From Thermoanaerobaculia bacterium (GTDB lineage Bacteria; Acidobacteriota; Thermoanaerobaculia; Gp7-AA8), in NCBI GenBank assembly GCA_016650215.1, contig JAENWF010000107.1, forward strand, positions 1-34,434: DNA of 34,434 bases, given 5' to 3'. This document shows positions 3,333 to 7,429 of the stretch, in pieces. Position 1 is the stretch's first letter; each line of letters begins with the position of its first letter. Position numbers and translations under genes: made by a program. The notes below the pieces were generated by a model. That model saw only the letters and a list, made by a program, of their open reading frames with translations. It did not search any database and had not been told where the DNA came from.

Positions 3333-3719
3333 TCAATACCGTTTCATTGGAATGAATTCGGGATCTTCCTGATGAGACCGCTCCCACTTCAGGAAATCGT
3401 AGTACCCGCACCTGGGCTGGTCCGGGTACTCATGGCAGACGCCCGGGCGGGCATCGTAGATCGTGCACCGGCGCGATTTCGTGTCGATGAACATACAGAT
3501 GCTACCGAATATCTTGTCCTTCTGATGACGGAGAACCCGTTCGCCTTCAATCTCTTTCGTGAAACGGCGCGTCGCCGTCTCCTCGTCGATTCCAAAATGC
3601 TTCGCGAGCCGCTTGAGGTCGCGCTTCTCCACGACAATGCTGTCGTAGCTGCAGCAATAGGCAGGGCACTTGAGGCAATCGTACTGAAGCTTCGGTCTCG
3701 GTTTTTCCGTCACGGACAT
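3333..3719 (-). CDS. YkgJ-family cysteine-cluster protein
   Basis: Small cytoplasmic protein (128 residues) of the YkgJ / UPF0153 family, thought to chelate zinc or an iron-sulfur cluster; its cellular job is unknown. The pattern is complete: CLKCPAYCC at residues 15-23, then [25 protein letters not shown] and a final Cys in QPRCGYYDF. The ATG at 3719 fits the usual N-terminus, just ahead of the first Cys motif. It is transcribed away from the hydrolase-like lipoprotein with 44 bases between starts. Confidence 0.85.
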
Positions 3720-3763
3720 GCGGGATCAAGTGTACTGGCATCGGGCTGGCTTCGGTAGCCTTC

Positions 3764-4621
3764 ATGCGAAAGAAATGGATCGTGATCATCGGCACGCTGC
3801 TCGCGGGCGGATGCTGCACTTCGCGTCCGGATGTTGCCGTTGATTCCGGAGCCGCCCGCTCGATCCCCGTGATGACCAGCTCGTCGGAAACTCCGGTCGT
3901 CGAGACTCGTTACGACTGGCACGATGCGACGCGGAACCGCGCGGTGCCGGTGAAAATCTACGCCGCGGCCGGCGCGGATCGCGCTCCAGTCGTCATCGTC
4001 TCCCGCGGCATCGGTGAGGATCGCGACTCCTACGAATACCTCGGCCTCGCGCTGGCGGCGCGCGGCTTCATGGCGGTTCACATCACCCACGCCGGGACGG
4101 ATCGCGCGACGCTCGAGCGCGGATACCTTCACCTCTACCGCGCGACCAAAGACAAAAAGAACTGGGTAAATCGGCCGCTCGATGTCTCGTTCGTGCTCGA
4201 CCAGTTGAAGGACGACCCGCGCGTGAGAGTCATCGTGCCGATGTCGATGCCGCGGATGGACGGCGTCGTGCCGCCCGGCGGCTACGATGCGATCGAGGTG
4301 CCGGCGCTCAACATCACCGGAACGTGCGACTCGAGCCTCATCTACCGCACGCTTCCACGCCACCGGCGCGTTCCATTCGAGTCGGGCCGCGCCGCCGCTC
4401 AATATCTCGTGACGCTTCGTGGCGTGACTCACAACTCGTTCTCGAATCGCGAAGACGTTCGTCACCCGGCCATCGCGGCGCTCGCCGTCGAGTTCCTGCG
4501 TGCGCATCTGATGGGTGACGCGGCGGCGGCGGCCTTCTTCGACACGCCGCGCAAGACTACGTTCGTCGCAACCGAAATGACCATTGAACGGAATGACGCC
4601 GGCGTCCGCGCCGTGCGATGA
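3764..4621 (+). CDS. alpha/beta-hydrolase lipoprotein lacking nucleophile elbow
   Basis: Relative of the predicted dienelactone hydrolase / PAF-acetylhydrolase-like family, 285 residues. The N-terminus MRKKWIVIIGTLLAGGCC looks like a lipoprotein signal with an imperfect lipobox. Family landmarks before and after the active site remain: APVVIVSRGIGEDRDSYEYLG (residues 75-94), VHITHAGTD, the conserved DVSFVLDQL, then DDPRVRVIVPMSMP, NITGTCDSS (acidic residue) and GVTHNSF (His 223). In the family about 45 residues carrying GHSFGA lie between VLDQL and DPR. Here they are absent, so there is no nucleophile Ser. The usual HG oxyanion motif is also RG. Reading frame is intact, so this is either a non-catalytic protein or an in-frame decayed gene. 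It forms a unit with the next gene, 9 bases away. Confidence 0.75.
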   Translation: MRKKWIVIIGTLLAGGCCTSRPDVAVDSGAARSIPVMTSSSETPVVETRYDWHDATRNRAVPVKIYAAAGADRAPVVIVSRGIGEDRDSYEYLGLALAARGFMAVHITHAGTDRATLERGYLHLYRATKDKKNWVNRPLDVSFVLDQLKDDPRVRVIVPMSMPRMDGVVPPGGYDAIEVPALNITGTCDSSLIYRTLPRHRRVPFESGRAAAQYLVTLRGVTHNSFSNREDVRHPAIAALAVEFLRAHLMGDAAAAAFFDTPRKTTFVATEMTIERNDAGVRAVR

Positions 4622-4630
4622 TCGAGACCG

Positions 4631-5350
4631 ATGGACCACGCCGTTTCACTCGTGCAGTCATATCTCCAACTCAATGGATACTTCACCTCGGCCGAGTACC
4701 CCATCGTCGCCGGTGCCGGCCGCAACGGCTTCCGGACCCTTACCGACATCGACATTCTCGCCTTCCGGTTTCCCAGCGGCGTGCCGGTGCAGCCCGGACG
4801 AAACTCGCCGCAGGGAATCGATATCAGCGACGTCGATCCGGGTCTCGGCATCACGACGAACTATGTCGATACGATCATCGGTGAGGTGAAGGAAGGTCGC
4901 GTCGGGATCAACTCCGGCATCCGCGACCCAGCCGTGCTCAAAGCGGTGATCGGCCGCTTCGGCAACCCAACCGAAGAGGATTTGAAGATCGTCGATGAGC
5001 TGCTGAAGAAGGGAATCGCAACGCTGACGAGCGGCAACGTCGTGCGGCTGGTCGCATTCGGCGCCTTTCCGCCGGGCGCCCCGGTTCCCCCCTGCCGGAT
5101 CATCAGCCTTGGCCATGTGCTGAACTTCCTTCAGGGTTACGTGCGCCGGCACTGGAGCATGCTGCGCCATCTTCAGTTCAAAGATCCCGCCCTGGGATTT
5201 CTGATGACGCTGGAGAAAGCGCGTCGCGGCGGGGCCGGCCGCCGCGGAGCAGAAGGGGTCGAAGTCGTCCCTGCAGTCGGCGAAGAACGCGTCGCGCGCC
5301 CCAGACCGGAGAGTCAGGCGCGGCGAAACAAGCCGCGGGATCCGAAGTAG
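4631..5350 (+). CDS. conserved hypothetical, possible PD-(D/E)XK fold
   Basis: Unrecognised protein of 239 residues, no signal peptide or membrane segment, so cytoplasmic. The N-terminal helix (HAVSLVQSYLQLNGYF) is followed by EYPIV at residues 22-26, TDIDILAF at 38-45 and IIGEVKEG at 82-89. The spacing E22...D41...E85-V-K87, with each acidic residue on a hydrophobic strand, matches the core of restriction-endonuclease-like PD-(D/E)XK nucleases. NVVRLVAFG (136-144) would be the next strand. The last 40 residues are Arg/Ala/Pro-rich and probably disordered. It follows the hydrolase-like gene by 9 bases and ends three bases before the convergent cyclase gene. The nuclease idea is inference from motif spacing only. 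Confidence 0.7.
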   Translation: MDHAVSLVQSYLQLNGYFTSAEYPIVAGAGRNGFRTLTDIDILAFRFPSGVPVQPGRNSPQGIDISDVDPGLGITTNYVDTIIGEVKEGRVGINSGIRDPAVLKAVIGRFGNPTEEDLKIVDELLKKGIATLTSGNVVRLVAFGAFPPGAPVPPCRIISLGHVLNFLQGYVRRHWSMLRHLQFKDPALGFLMTLEKARRGGAGRRGAEGVEVVPAVGEERVARPRPESQARRNKPRDPK

Positions 5351-5353
5351 CGA

Positions 5354-7429
5354 CTATTCGCTTGTGACTGCCTGCGTGTGCGAGTTGTCGCAGAACGGTT
5401 TGTTCTTCGAGTGGCCGCAGCGGCAGAGCGCCATGCGGGTGTCTTTGCGGACCAGAGCGCCGTCGTGCGATTCGACCGTGATGTCGCCGCGGACGTAGAG
5501 CGGGCCGCCGGCGACGAGCATGATCGCGTCTTCCTGCGGCACGGACTCTCGTGAGCCTCCGTCGCGGCGCACGTAGTGCAGTGCACCCGTCGGACACTGC
5601 GCGATGACCGCCGCCAGTTGTTCAGGTGTTGCGTTTTCGGGCCTGATCCACGGTTTCAGCTTCGGATCAAAAACGCCGGGAAGGCTCGAGACGCATCGTG
5701 CGGCGTGGGTACAGCTTCGTGGATCGAAGTAGACCTCGATCCCGGGCGCTGAATACTTCTTGCCGCGAGGCTCCATATCGGGGCTGTAGACGACGACGCG
5801 GTTGCGGCCCGAGCGTTTCGCCTCGTACAGCGCGTGATCGGCGTGATCGATGAGCGTCTGTCTCTTGCGACCGTCGCCGTCGGGAGCTGCGGTCGCAACG
5901 CCGATGCTGACGGTCACGCTCGAGCCGGCTGGCCCGGCAGGATGATGAATCTGCAGTGCGGCTACGCGATCGCGGATCAACTCCGCAAGCCGCCCGGCAT
6001 TCTCTCCGTCGGTGTCGGGCAGGAGGATGGCGAACTCCTCGCCGCCATATCGCGCGACGACATCGCCCGCACGATGAACAGCCGAGCGGATCGCATCGGC
6101 GACGCGCTTGATGCACTTGTCACCAGCGGGGTGGCCGAGGACGTCGTTGTACGCTTTGAAACCGTCGATGTCGGCGATGAGGAGCGAGAGCGCAACATCC
6201 ACGCGCGCGGCACGCCGCCACTCGATCCCGATCATGTGATCGAAATGACGGCGCGTCTGCAGTCCGGTGAGCGAGTCCTGCGCGGAGACCTCATGCAGCT
6301 TCTCGACAGCACCCGCCAGCAACGCGTTCGCGTCCTCGAGATCCTTCTTCTGCTGGTGCAGCTCCGACTTCGCCGCGGCCAGCTCGTCGTTGGTCCGCAC
6401 CATCTTCAAACCGCCGGCGATCTGATCCGCGAACGCTTCGACCGCCATCACCGTTGCCGCAGAAAACGTGTTGGCGGCACTGCTCTCGAGATTGAAGACT
6501 CCGAGGAGCTCGCCCTGGAGCCGGATCGGCACGACCAGTTCGGAGACGACCGTCGGCGTTCCGCAGATGTAGTCCGGATCGGTGGTCACATCGCGAACGA
6601 GCTGCGTGTGGCCGGTCCGGAGACAGCGGCCGATGATTCCAACGCTGACAGGCCAGCGGTTCAACGCCGAGCTCCGCGGAATGTTTCCGATCTCCGCCGC
6701 GCGGTAGTACTCGAGTCGTTCGGCGTCATAGAGCCGGATGGAGACGATCTCGAGCGGGAATCGCTCGTAAACGTACGAGACCACACGCGCGAGAAAGTCA
6801 TCGAGATGCGTCGCCTCGAGCGCCGAGCGCGAGACCTCGCTCATCATCTGCATCAGACGCGCTCGCTCCTCCAGCTCCGCGTAGAGGCGGGCACTGCCGA
6901 TCGTGCCGGCGATCTGGTCGGCAATCATCTGCAGAAGCGGAAGCTGGCCGTGAAACGCGGCCAGGCGCGTGCTCTCGATGTTCAGCACGGCGACGACCTT
7001 GCCTTTGTGCTTGATGGGAACGCAGATTTCCGACAACACGCCCGGCGTTGTGTCGACATAATTCGCGTGGAGGCGCACATCGTCGATCAGCATCGGCAAC
7101 TGCGTGGCCACGACTTCACCGACCACGCCCGAGCCGAGCGGACGGCTATACCCGACGTGAACATCGGTCGGGAGCGAGTTGCTCATCGCCTCGCAGACGA
7201 AGCTCGTTCCCTCGCGATCCGCGACGACAAGCGCCACGAGCTGCCAGTCGAAGTGCCGAATGAGCGTGTCGGTGATTCGCTGCAGTATCGGACGCAGTTC
7301 GAGATCGAGGTTGGCGATGCGCGTCAGCTCGTTGAGAACCTCGAGATGCTTCTCATCGCCAGGGCCGGTGTGTGCGCCTGCATTCGCATCGGAGATGACC
7401 ATGAGGCGCGTGGGATCCGGAACGTCCAT
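5354..7429 (-). CDS. GAF-GAF-GGDEF cyclase fused to Fer4_19 and CDGSH Fe-S domains
   Basis: 691-residue multidomain protein. Residues ~35-185 and ~200-345 are two GAF sensor domains (e.g. EICVPIKHKGKVVAVLNIES, ELVVPIRLQGELLGVFNLES). ~345-382 is a coiled-coil linker. ~385-550 is a diguanylate cyclase with DSLTGLQTRRHFD, LIADIDGFKAYND, signature GGEEF at 462-466 and an allosteric I-site RAGD exactly five residues before it, so it should make c-di-GMP. Without any stop the frame continues into a Fer4_19-type ferredoxin domain (~560-623; Cys 573, 579, 612) and a CDGSH-type domain ending CRCGHSKNKPFCDNSH (Cys 669, 671, 680, His 684). Such Fe-S pairs are usually a stand-alone protein of about 140 residues. 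An in-frame ATG at residue 552 could allow separate translation, but no ribosome site precedes it. No strong Shine-Dalgarno precedes the main start either. Confidence 0.9.
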   Translation of the reverse strand: MDVPDPTRLMVISDANAGAHTGPGDEKHLEVLNELTRIANLDLELRPILQRITDTLIRHFDWQLVALVVADREGTSFVCEAMSNSLPTDVHVGYSRPLGSGVVGEVVATQLPMLIDDVRLHANYVDTTPGVLSEICVPIKHKGKVVAVLNIESTRLAAFHGQLPLLQMIADQIAGTIGSARLYAELEERARLMQMMSEVSRSALEATHLDDFLARVVSYVYERFPLEIVSIRLYDAERLEYYRAAEIGNIPRSSALNRWPVSVGIIGRCLRTGHTQLVRDVTTDPDYICGTPTVVSELVVPIRLQGELLGVFNLESSAANTFSAATVMAVEAFADQIAGGLKMVRTNDELAAAKSELHQQKKDLEDANALLAGAVEKLHEVSAQDSLTGLQTRRHFDHMIGIEWRRAARVDVALSLLIADIDGFKAYNDVLGHPAGDKCIKRVADAIRSAVHRAGDVVARYGGEEFAILLPDTDGENAGRLAELIRDRVAALQIHHPAGPAGSSVTVSIGVATAAPDGDGRKRQTLIDHADHALYEAKRSGRNRVVVYSPDMEPRGKKYSAPGIEVYFDPRSCTHAARCVSSLPGVFDPKLKPWIRPENATPEQLAAVIAQCPTGALHYVRRDGGSRESVPQEDAIMLVAGGPLYVRGDITVESHDGALVRKDTRMALCRCGHSKNKPFCDNSHTQAVTSE

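Follow-up and report, generated by a model that had tools for sequence, protein, structure and literature searches.

An in-frame fusion of a GAF-GAF-GGDEF diguanylate cyclase gene and a Fer4_19-CDGSH iron-sulfur gene in an Acidobacteriota genome

Results

Domain content of the fused gene

The window, i.e., the whole 34,434-nucleotide stretch analyzed here, carries at 5354-7429 on the reverse strand a single ATG-to-TAG frame of 691 codons without interruption, in which two GAF domains and a GGDEF diguanylate cyclase domain are followed by an iron-sulfur (Fe-S) part made up of a Fer4_19 and a CDGSH domain. The features are:

5354-7429, reverse strand: whole fused gene, GAF-GAF-GGDEF-Fer4_19-CDGSH (open reading frame and Pfam)
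6899-7297, reverse strand: GAF domain 1, residues 45-177 (Pfam; AlphaFold2 model)
6407-6802, reverse strand: GAF domain 2, about residues 210-341 (Pfam GAF_3 stretch plus a second GAF stretch; model)
5798-6283, reverse strand: GGDEF diguanylate cyclase domain, residues 383-544 (Pfam, 2.3e-47; NCBIfam TIGR00254, 1.9e-47)
6062-6073, reverse strand: RxxD inhibitory-site motif RAGD, residues 453-456 (motif position)
6032-6046, reverse strand: active-site motif GGEEF, residues 462-466 (motif position)
5777-5788, reverse strand: fusion joint, linker YSPD, residues 548-551 (comparison with relatives)
5774-5776, reverse strand: Met552 (alignment with the starts of free-standing Fe-S genes)
5567-5755, reverse strand: Fer4_19 domain, residues 559-621, with C573-x5-C579 ... 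C612-P and the conserved His575 (Pfam, alignment)
5378-5506, reverse strand: CDGSH domain, residues 642-684, with the ligand motif CRCGHSKNKPFCDNSH at 669-684 (Pfam, motif)
4631-5350, forward strand: convergent neighbor, no Pfam match (synteny)

Every Pfam domain of the gene was found far above its gathering cut-off (7.9e-29 for the two GAF domains, 5.7e-20 for Fer4_19 and 7.4e-18 for the one zf-CDGSH domain of the fused protein), and Pfam and motifs together agree with the original prediction, which had read the 691-codon frame as two GAF domains, a GGEEF with RAGD, a three-Cys Fer4_19 segment and a CDGSH domain. With homology support for both halves in the same frame, this is not an open frame arisen by chance from high GC content.

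The active-site and cluster-ligand residues that we recognized in the fused protein are all intact. That is, the cyclase part has the metal-binding Asp motif DIDGF (DIDxF) at residue 420 and, five residues ahead of GGEEF (462), the RAGD motif, an RxxD placed as in active cyclases; the Fer4_19 domain has Cys573, Cys579 and Cys612; and the CDGSH domain has the complete 3 Cys-1 His [2Fe-2S] motif (Cys669, Cys671, Cys680 and His684). Across 65 aligned homologues all these ligand residues were invariant, as was His575, and the Fer4_19 family alignment had no fourth invariant Cys; the three-Cys pattern is therefore the norm of the family rather than a degenerate cluster site, with a predicted [3Fe-4S] or [4Fe-4S] cluster. 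Judged by its sequence, the Fe-S part is a type 7 CISD of subtype DC, i.e., Fer4_19/DUF1271 and then one CDGSH domain (Lin et al. 2011, PMC3174974), and the homologues nearest to it (L025 and L029) are DC proteins that stand alone.

The closest solved structures to a full-length AlphaFold2 model (pLDDT 87.9, pTM 0.44) were bacteriophytochrome-diguanylate cyclases (5llw) and the GGDEF domain of WspR (3i5b); at a pTM of 0.44, the individual domains can be relied on, but not the position that the model gives the Fe-S part with respect to the cyclase. Modeled alone, the Fe-S part reached a pLDDT of 91.7 and a pTM of 0.83. Its CDGSH part is predicted to adopt a type 4-like CDGSH fold (TM 0.81 by target and rmsd 1.1 Å over 55 columns against the type 4 CISD 3tbm_A), and its Fer4_19 part gave only a weak structural match, to a complex containing the mycobacterial ferredoxin FdxE.

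The locus in related genomes

Within an 18-genome family, orthologues of the cyclase were found in G001 (63% identity), G016 (57%), and G005 and G004 (45-46%). All four have the same GAF-GAF-GGDEF arrangement as the fused gene; their match to it breaks off at query residue 547-550, and they end with the GGDEF domain (right after it, the G001 protein ends in GRNRVVCAD and the G016 protein in RNRVVA), whereas the Fe-S part is present in the window gene only. No Fer4_19-CDGSH gene was found in the other members of this family, which gave CDGSH matches only. Further, the order of the neighboring genes on both sides of the cyclase is common to the window, G001 and G016, the latter two representing two other genera of the family. 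In these two genomes, 62 and 78 bp separate the cyclase from the convergent gene (the counterpart of 4631-5350); in the window, this space is taken up by the Fe-S segment, leaving 3 bp between the two stop codons. The original prediction had named one arrangement that would speak against its own reading, namely two separate genes at the locus in close relatives. This is not what we found: relatives carry the GGDEF gene alone, with its stop and without an Fe-S gene.

The convergent neighbor belongs to a conserved family (69-76% identity in three other family genomes, without a Pfam match). In a third genome, G017, it lies about 1.7 kb from the cyclase, and the sequence in between (L143:9954-11679) looks, by eye, like an antisense amidase gene; insertion at this place may thus have happened on more than one occasion. 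Elsewhere in the window, 3333-3719 on the reverse strand encodes a small CxxCxxCC protein with a putative metal-chelating domain, which is syntenic in G001, G016 and G017.

The fusion joint

Around the joint, marked here with a slash, the window reads RNRVVVYSPD/MEPRGKKYSAPGIEVYFDP, with MEPRGKKY directly after the slash. The last GGDEF strand is followed by four residues (YSPD) and then by Met552, and it is at this place that the relatives have their stop codon. Met552 aligns with the start codon of free-standing homologues from the same class (MEREGKEYKGSA / MEREGKEYKGSAITVRF at L109 and MQRDEKDYRGESITVRF at L154), and neither gene lost any recognizable part at the joint. The pattern is also compatible with the suggestion, made from the sequence, of an independent activity merged through loss of a stop codon, in this case with capture of the Fe-S gene in full, from its start codon on. 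With stop and spacer gone, a join falls in frame roughly 1 time in 3, so the frame alone is no sign of selection. We found no Shine-Dalgarno-like motif upstream of Met552, and a clear motif of this kind is absent from most genes of the window as well; the search for RNA elements and promoters upstream gave nothing above chance.

As assembled, then, the fusion is genuine, exact at its joint and specific to one lineage, and we place the probability that it is a genomic fact at about 0.9. It is known from a single metagenome-assembled genome, representing one species of its genus.

Distribution of GGDEF/Fe-S pairings and origin of the Fe-S module

A species-wide genome scan gave 192 relatives, the best 80 of which were examined (loci totaling 700,828 bp) and contained no GGDEF fusion. 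Neither did we find another one in 352 genomes of three Acidobacteriota classes (149, 162 and 41, respectively) or in a 396-genome sample of the phylum. Matches with internal stops in G605 and G539 were checked and had no GGDEF, and several frames upstream of other Fe-S genes (L161, L165) were chance frames with no GGDEF match. The search for the same architecture in related genomes, recommended with the original prediction, thus returned no second case, and among the genomes covered the fusion is unique to the window's lineage.

A GGDEF reading frame lies beside a free-standing Fe-S gene in one of these 80 loci (the best 80 of 192), L084 from a member of the Chromatiaceae. There, at 3351-5804, a PAS-GGDEF gene is followed directly, after one stop, by a separate, in-frame Fer4_19-CDGSH-CDGSH gene; this is possibly a halfway stage of a similar joining event, or a coincidence. 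In G386 (L109/L147), a Fer4_19-CDGSH gene is divergent to a GGDEF gene, and no GGDEF gene was found in the 1.5-kb flanks of the congener's copy, L154. We rejected a recurrent GGDEF/Fe-S association, given that only L084 and L109 speak for it and that the neighbor of L109 is missing beside L154. Other arrangements of the module were also seen: three loci (L083, L092 and L095) encode a ferritin-like domain fused to Fer4_19-CDGSH-CDGSH in a protein of about 670 aa (tested with Pfam in L095 and assigned from the alignment of similar sequences in L083 and L092), and in Melioribacter (L036:936-1551) a Fer4_19-CDGSH-CDGSH gene lies in two overlapping frames, possibly due to a frameshift.

Free-standing relatives of the Fe-S part are scattered, being found in 26 of 149 genomes of the class and in 27 of 396 sampled genomes of the phylum, the window's own included. 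The window's genome yielded no type 7 CISD besides the fused gene. A tree of 121 modules placed two Gemmatimonadota genes nearest to the window (support 98/78, over few columns), which suggests a transfer from a Gemmatimonadota-like source; because the tree rests on few columns, such a transfer is suggested rather than shown. The composition of the Fe-S segment (GC 0.636, GC3 0.757) agrees with that of the host. The host's phylum is Acidobacteriota, since a 453-aa frame of the same-phylum genome G074 (L115) is identical to one of Acidobacteria bacterium Mor1 (L046); its class is probably Thermoanaerobaculia, the so-named L026 grouping with genomes of the same class.

Discussion

In the explanation that we favor, a vertically inherited Acidobacteriota GAF-GAF-GGDEF cyclase gained a complete Fer4_19-CDGSH gene in the short gap to its convergent neighbor; the stop codon of the cyclase is gone, such that both genes would give one continuous chain, joined by only a few linker residues. 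The product would be a c-di-GMP synthase with two Fe-S clusters, made as one chain and presumably dimeric, and it is probable that the fusion is indeed made as one protein in which both parts work. Diguanylate cyclases act as dimers. For type 7 CISDs, in turn, a dimer like that of type 4 has been predicted (PMC3174974), and because such a dimer-forming domain would follow each GGDEF domain by a few residues, the CDGSH dimer could hold or mis-set the catalytic pair. In the most likely mechanism, the CDGSH part, whose family has known or predicted homodimers, would tie the two GGDEF domains of the dimeric cyclase together from the C-terminal side, the GAF/coiled-coil stalk would do so from the N-terminal side, and the occupancy or oxidation of the clusters would favor or hinder a productive GGDEF pair. 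Control of the cyclase by the clusters, in whatever form, is a possibility to which we give somewhat less than even odds, and the specific version, with cluster loss or oxidation switching c-di-GMP synthesis through the CDGSH dimer as a built-in, C-terminal, two-cluster Fe-S input, is a tentative proposal, less likely than not. At the sequence level there is no sign of an effect of the clusters on the cyclase. The original suggestion that c-di-GMP synthesis may be tied to Fe-S status finds no direct support in the genomes covered: the fusion was seen in no second species, and GGDEF genes neighbored free-standing Fe-S genes at one of the 80 loci.

Alternatively, the two halves may work independently and share only a message and a chain, the Fe-S part keeping its own cluster- or electron-transfer role and the cyclase its control by the GAF domains. 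Both this explanation and Fe-S control of the cyclase are plausible, and we consider them about equally likely. The capture of a whole Fe-S gene, start included, with nothing recognizable lost from either partner, speaks for independent halves, and as no other type 7 CISD was found in the genome, this one may be retained for a task of its own; the rarity of GGDEF genes beside free-standing copies (best 80 of 192 relatives) points the same way, as does the position of the Fe-S part distal to the cyclase, as opposed to the N-terminal sensory domains of most c-di-GMP enzymes (PMC5052742). However, a linker of a few residues keeps the dimer-forming CDGSH domain near the GGDEF pair, and some mechanical effect of the former on the latter is likely.

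A different possibility is that an internal start at Met552 gives rise to the Fe-S protein, either as a second route or as the sole one, the fused chain being a by-product. The position of Met552 at the start of the free-standing homologues speaks for it, and the missing Shine-Dalgarno motif is not decisive when most genes of the window lack a clear one; yet the start would lie inside a translated frame with no stop ahead of it and with neither a Shine-Dalgarno-like motif nor a promoter-like site nearby, and we regard this explanation as improbable. Even less probable, in our view, is an artefact of assembly or base calling, whether through an overlooked stop or frameshift separating two genes or through a chimeric contig. 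The genome is a draft (3.19 Mb in 247 contigs, 87.9% complete), by its contig count and completeness probably assembled from a metagenome, and the single one of its genus, which leaves some room for error, but both flanks are syntenic with two other genera, making a simple chimeric join very unlikely, the composition agrees with the host, and the four residues at the joint leave no space for an intergenic region. We retain the one-chain fusion as the preferred reading, with regulation by the clusters as a tentative addition to it.

If the latter holds, an Fe-S cluster built into the enzyme's own chain would represent a new input to c-di-GMP synthesis, linking decisions on biofilm and motility to iron-sulfur status. 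The locus also provides a clean example of domain gain, since the ancestral gene order is kept in relatives and the states before and after the fusion can be compared, and it offers a test of the CDGSH dimer as a control element on a neighboring enzyme.

By the original prediction, no such fusion was known to be described, and we likewise found none in the open-licence literature; as far as that literature shows, the GGDEF/Fer4_19-CDGSH fusion is unrecorded. Reviews of CDGSH architectures in this literature list Fer4_19, ferritin-like (PMC5859297), Rieske, glutamate synthase, thioredoxin and cytochrome b5 partners (PMC5859297, PMC3174974), and GGDEF is absent from them. The term 'cdgSH' in two papers on Anabaena appears to be the name of a gene rather than the CDGSH motif. 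The known redox and O2 inputs of c-di-GMP enzymes are heme, flavin, di-iron (hemerythrin) and disulfides according to a census of c-di-GMP sensors, the text of which makes no mention of Fe-S clusters (PMC8846402).

Compared to known systems, the Fe-S part shares its domain order, ligands and single CDGSH domain with type 7 CISDs of subtype DC; these are small separate proteins, whereas the window copy forms the C-terminus of a larger enzyme, a diguanylate cyclase. The three ferritin-like proteins resemble the window fusion in carrying the Fer4_19-CDGSH module C-terminally in a larger protein, but their partner is a ferritin-like domain, they have two CDGSH domains, and no c-di-GMP enzyme is involved. 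On the signaling side, counterparts are VcBhr-DGC (hemerythrin), DgcO (globin-coupled) and Bhr-HD-GYP, in all of which one polypeptide combines the c-di-GMP enzyme with a metal cofactor that is proposed as a redox or O2 input (PMC8846402), the difference being that the cofactor is di-iron or heme in these proteins and, as predicted, an Fe-S cluster in the fusion described here.
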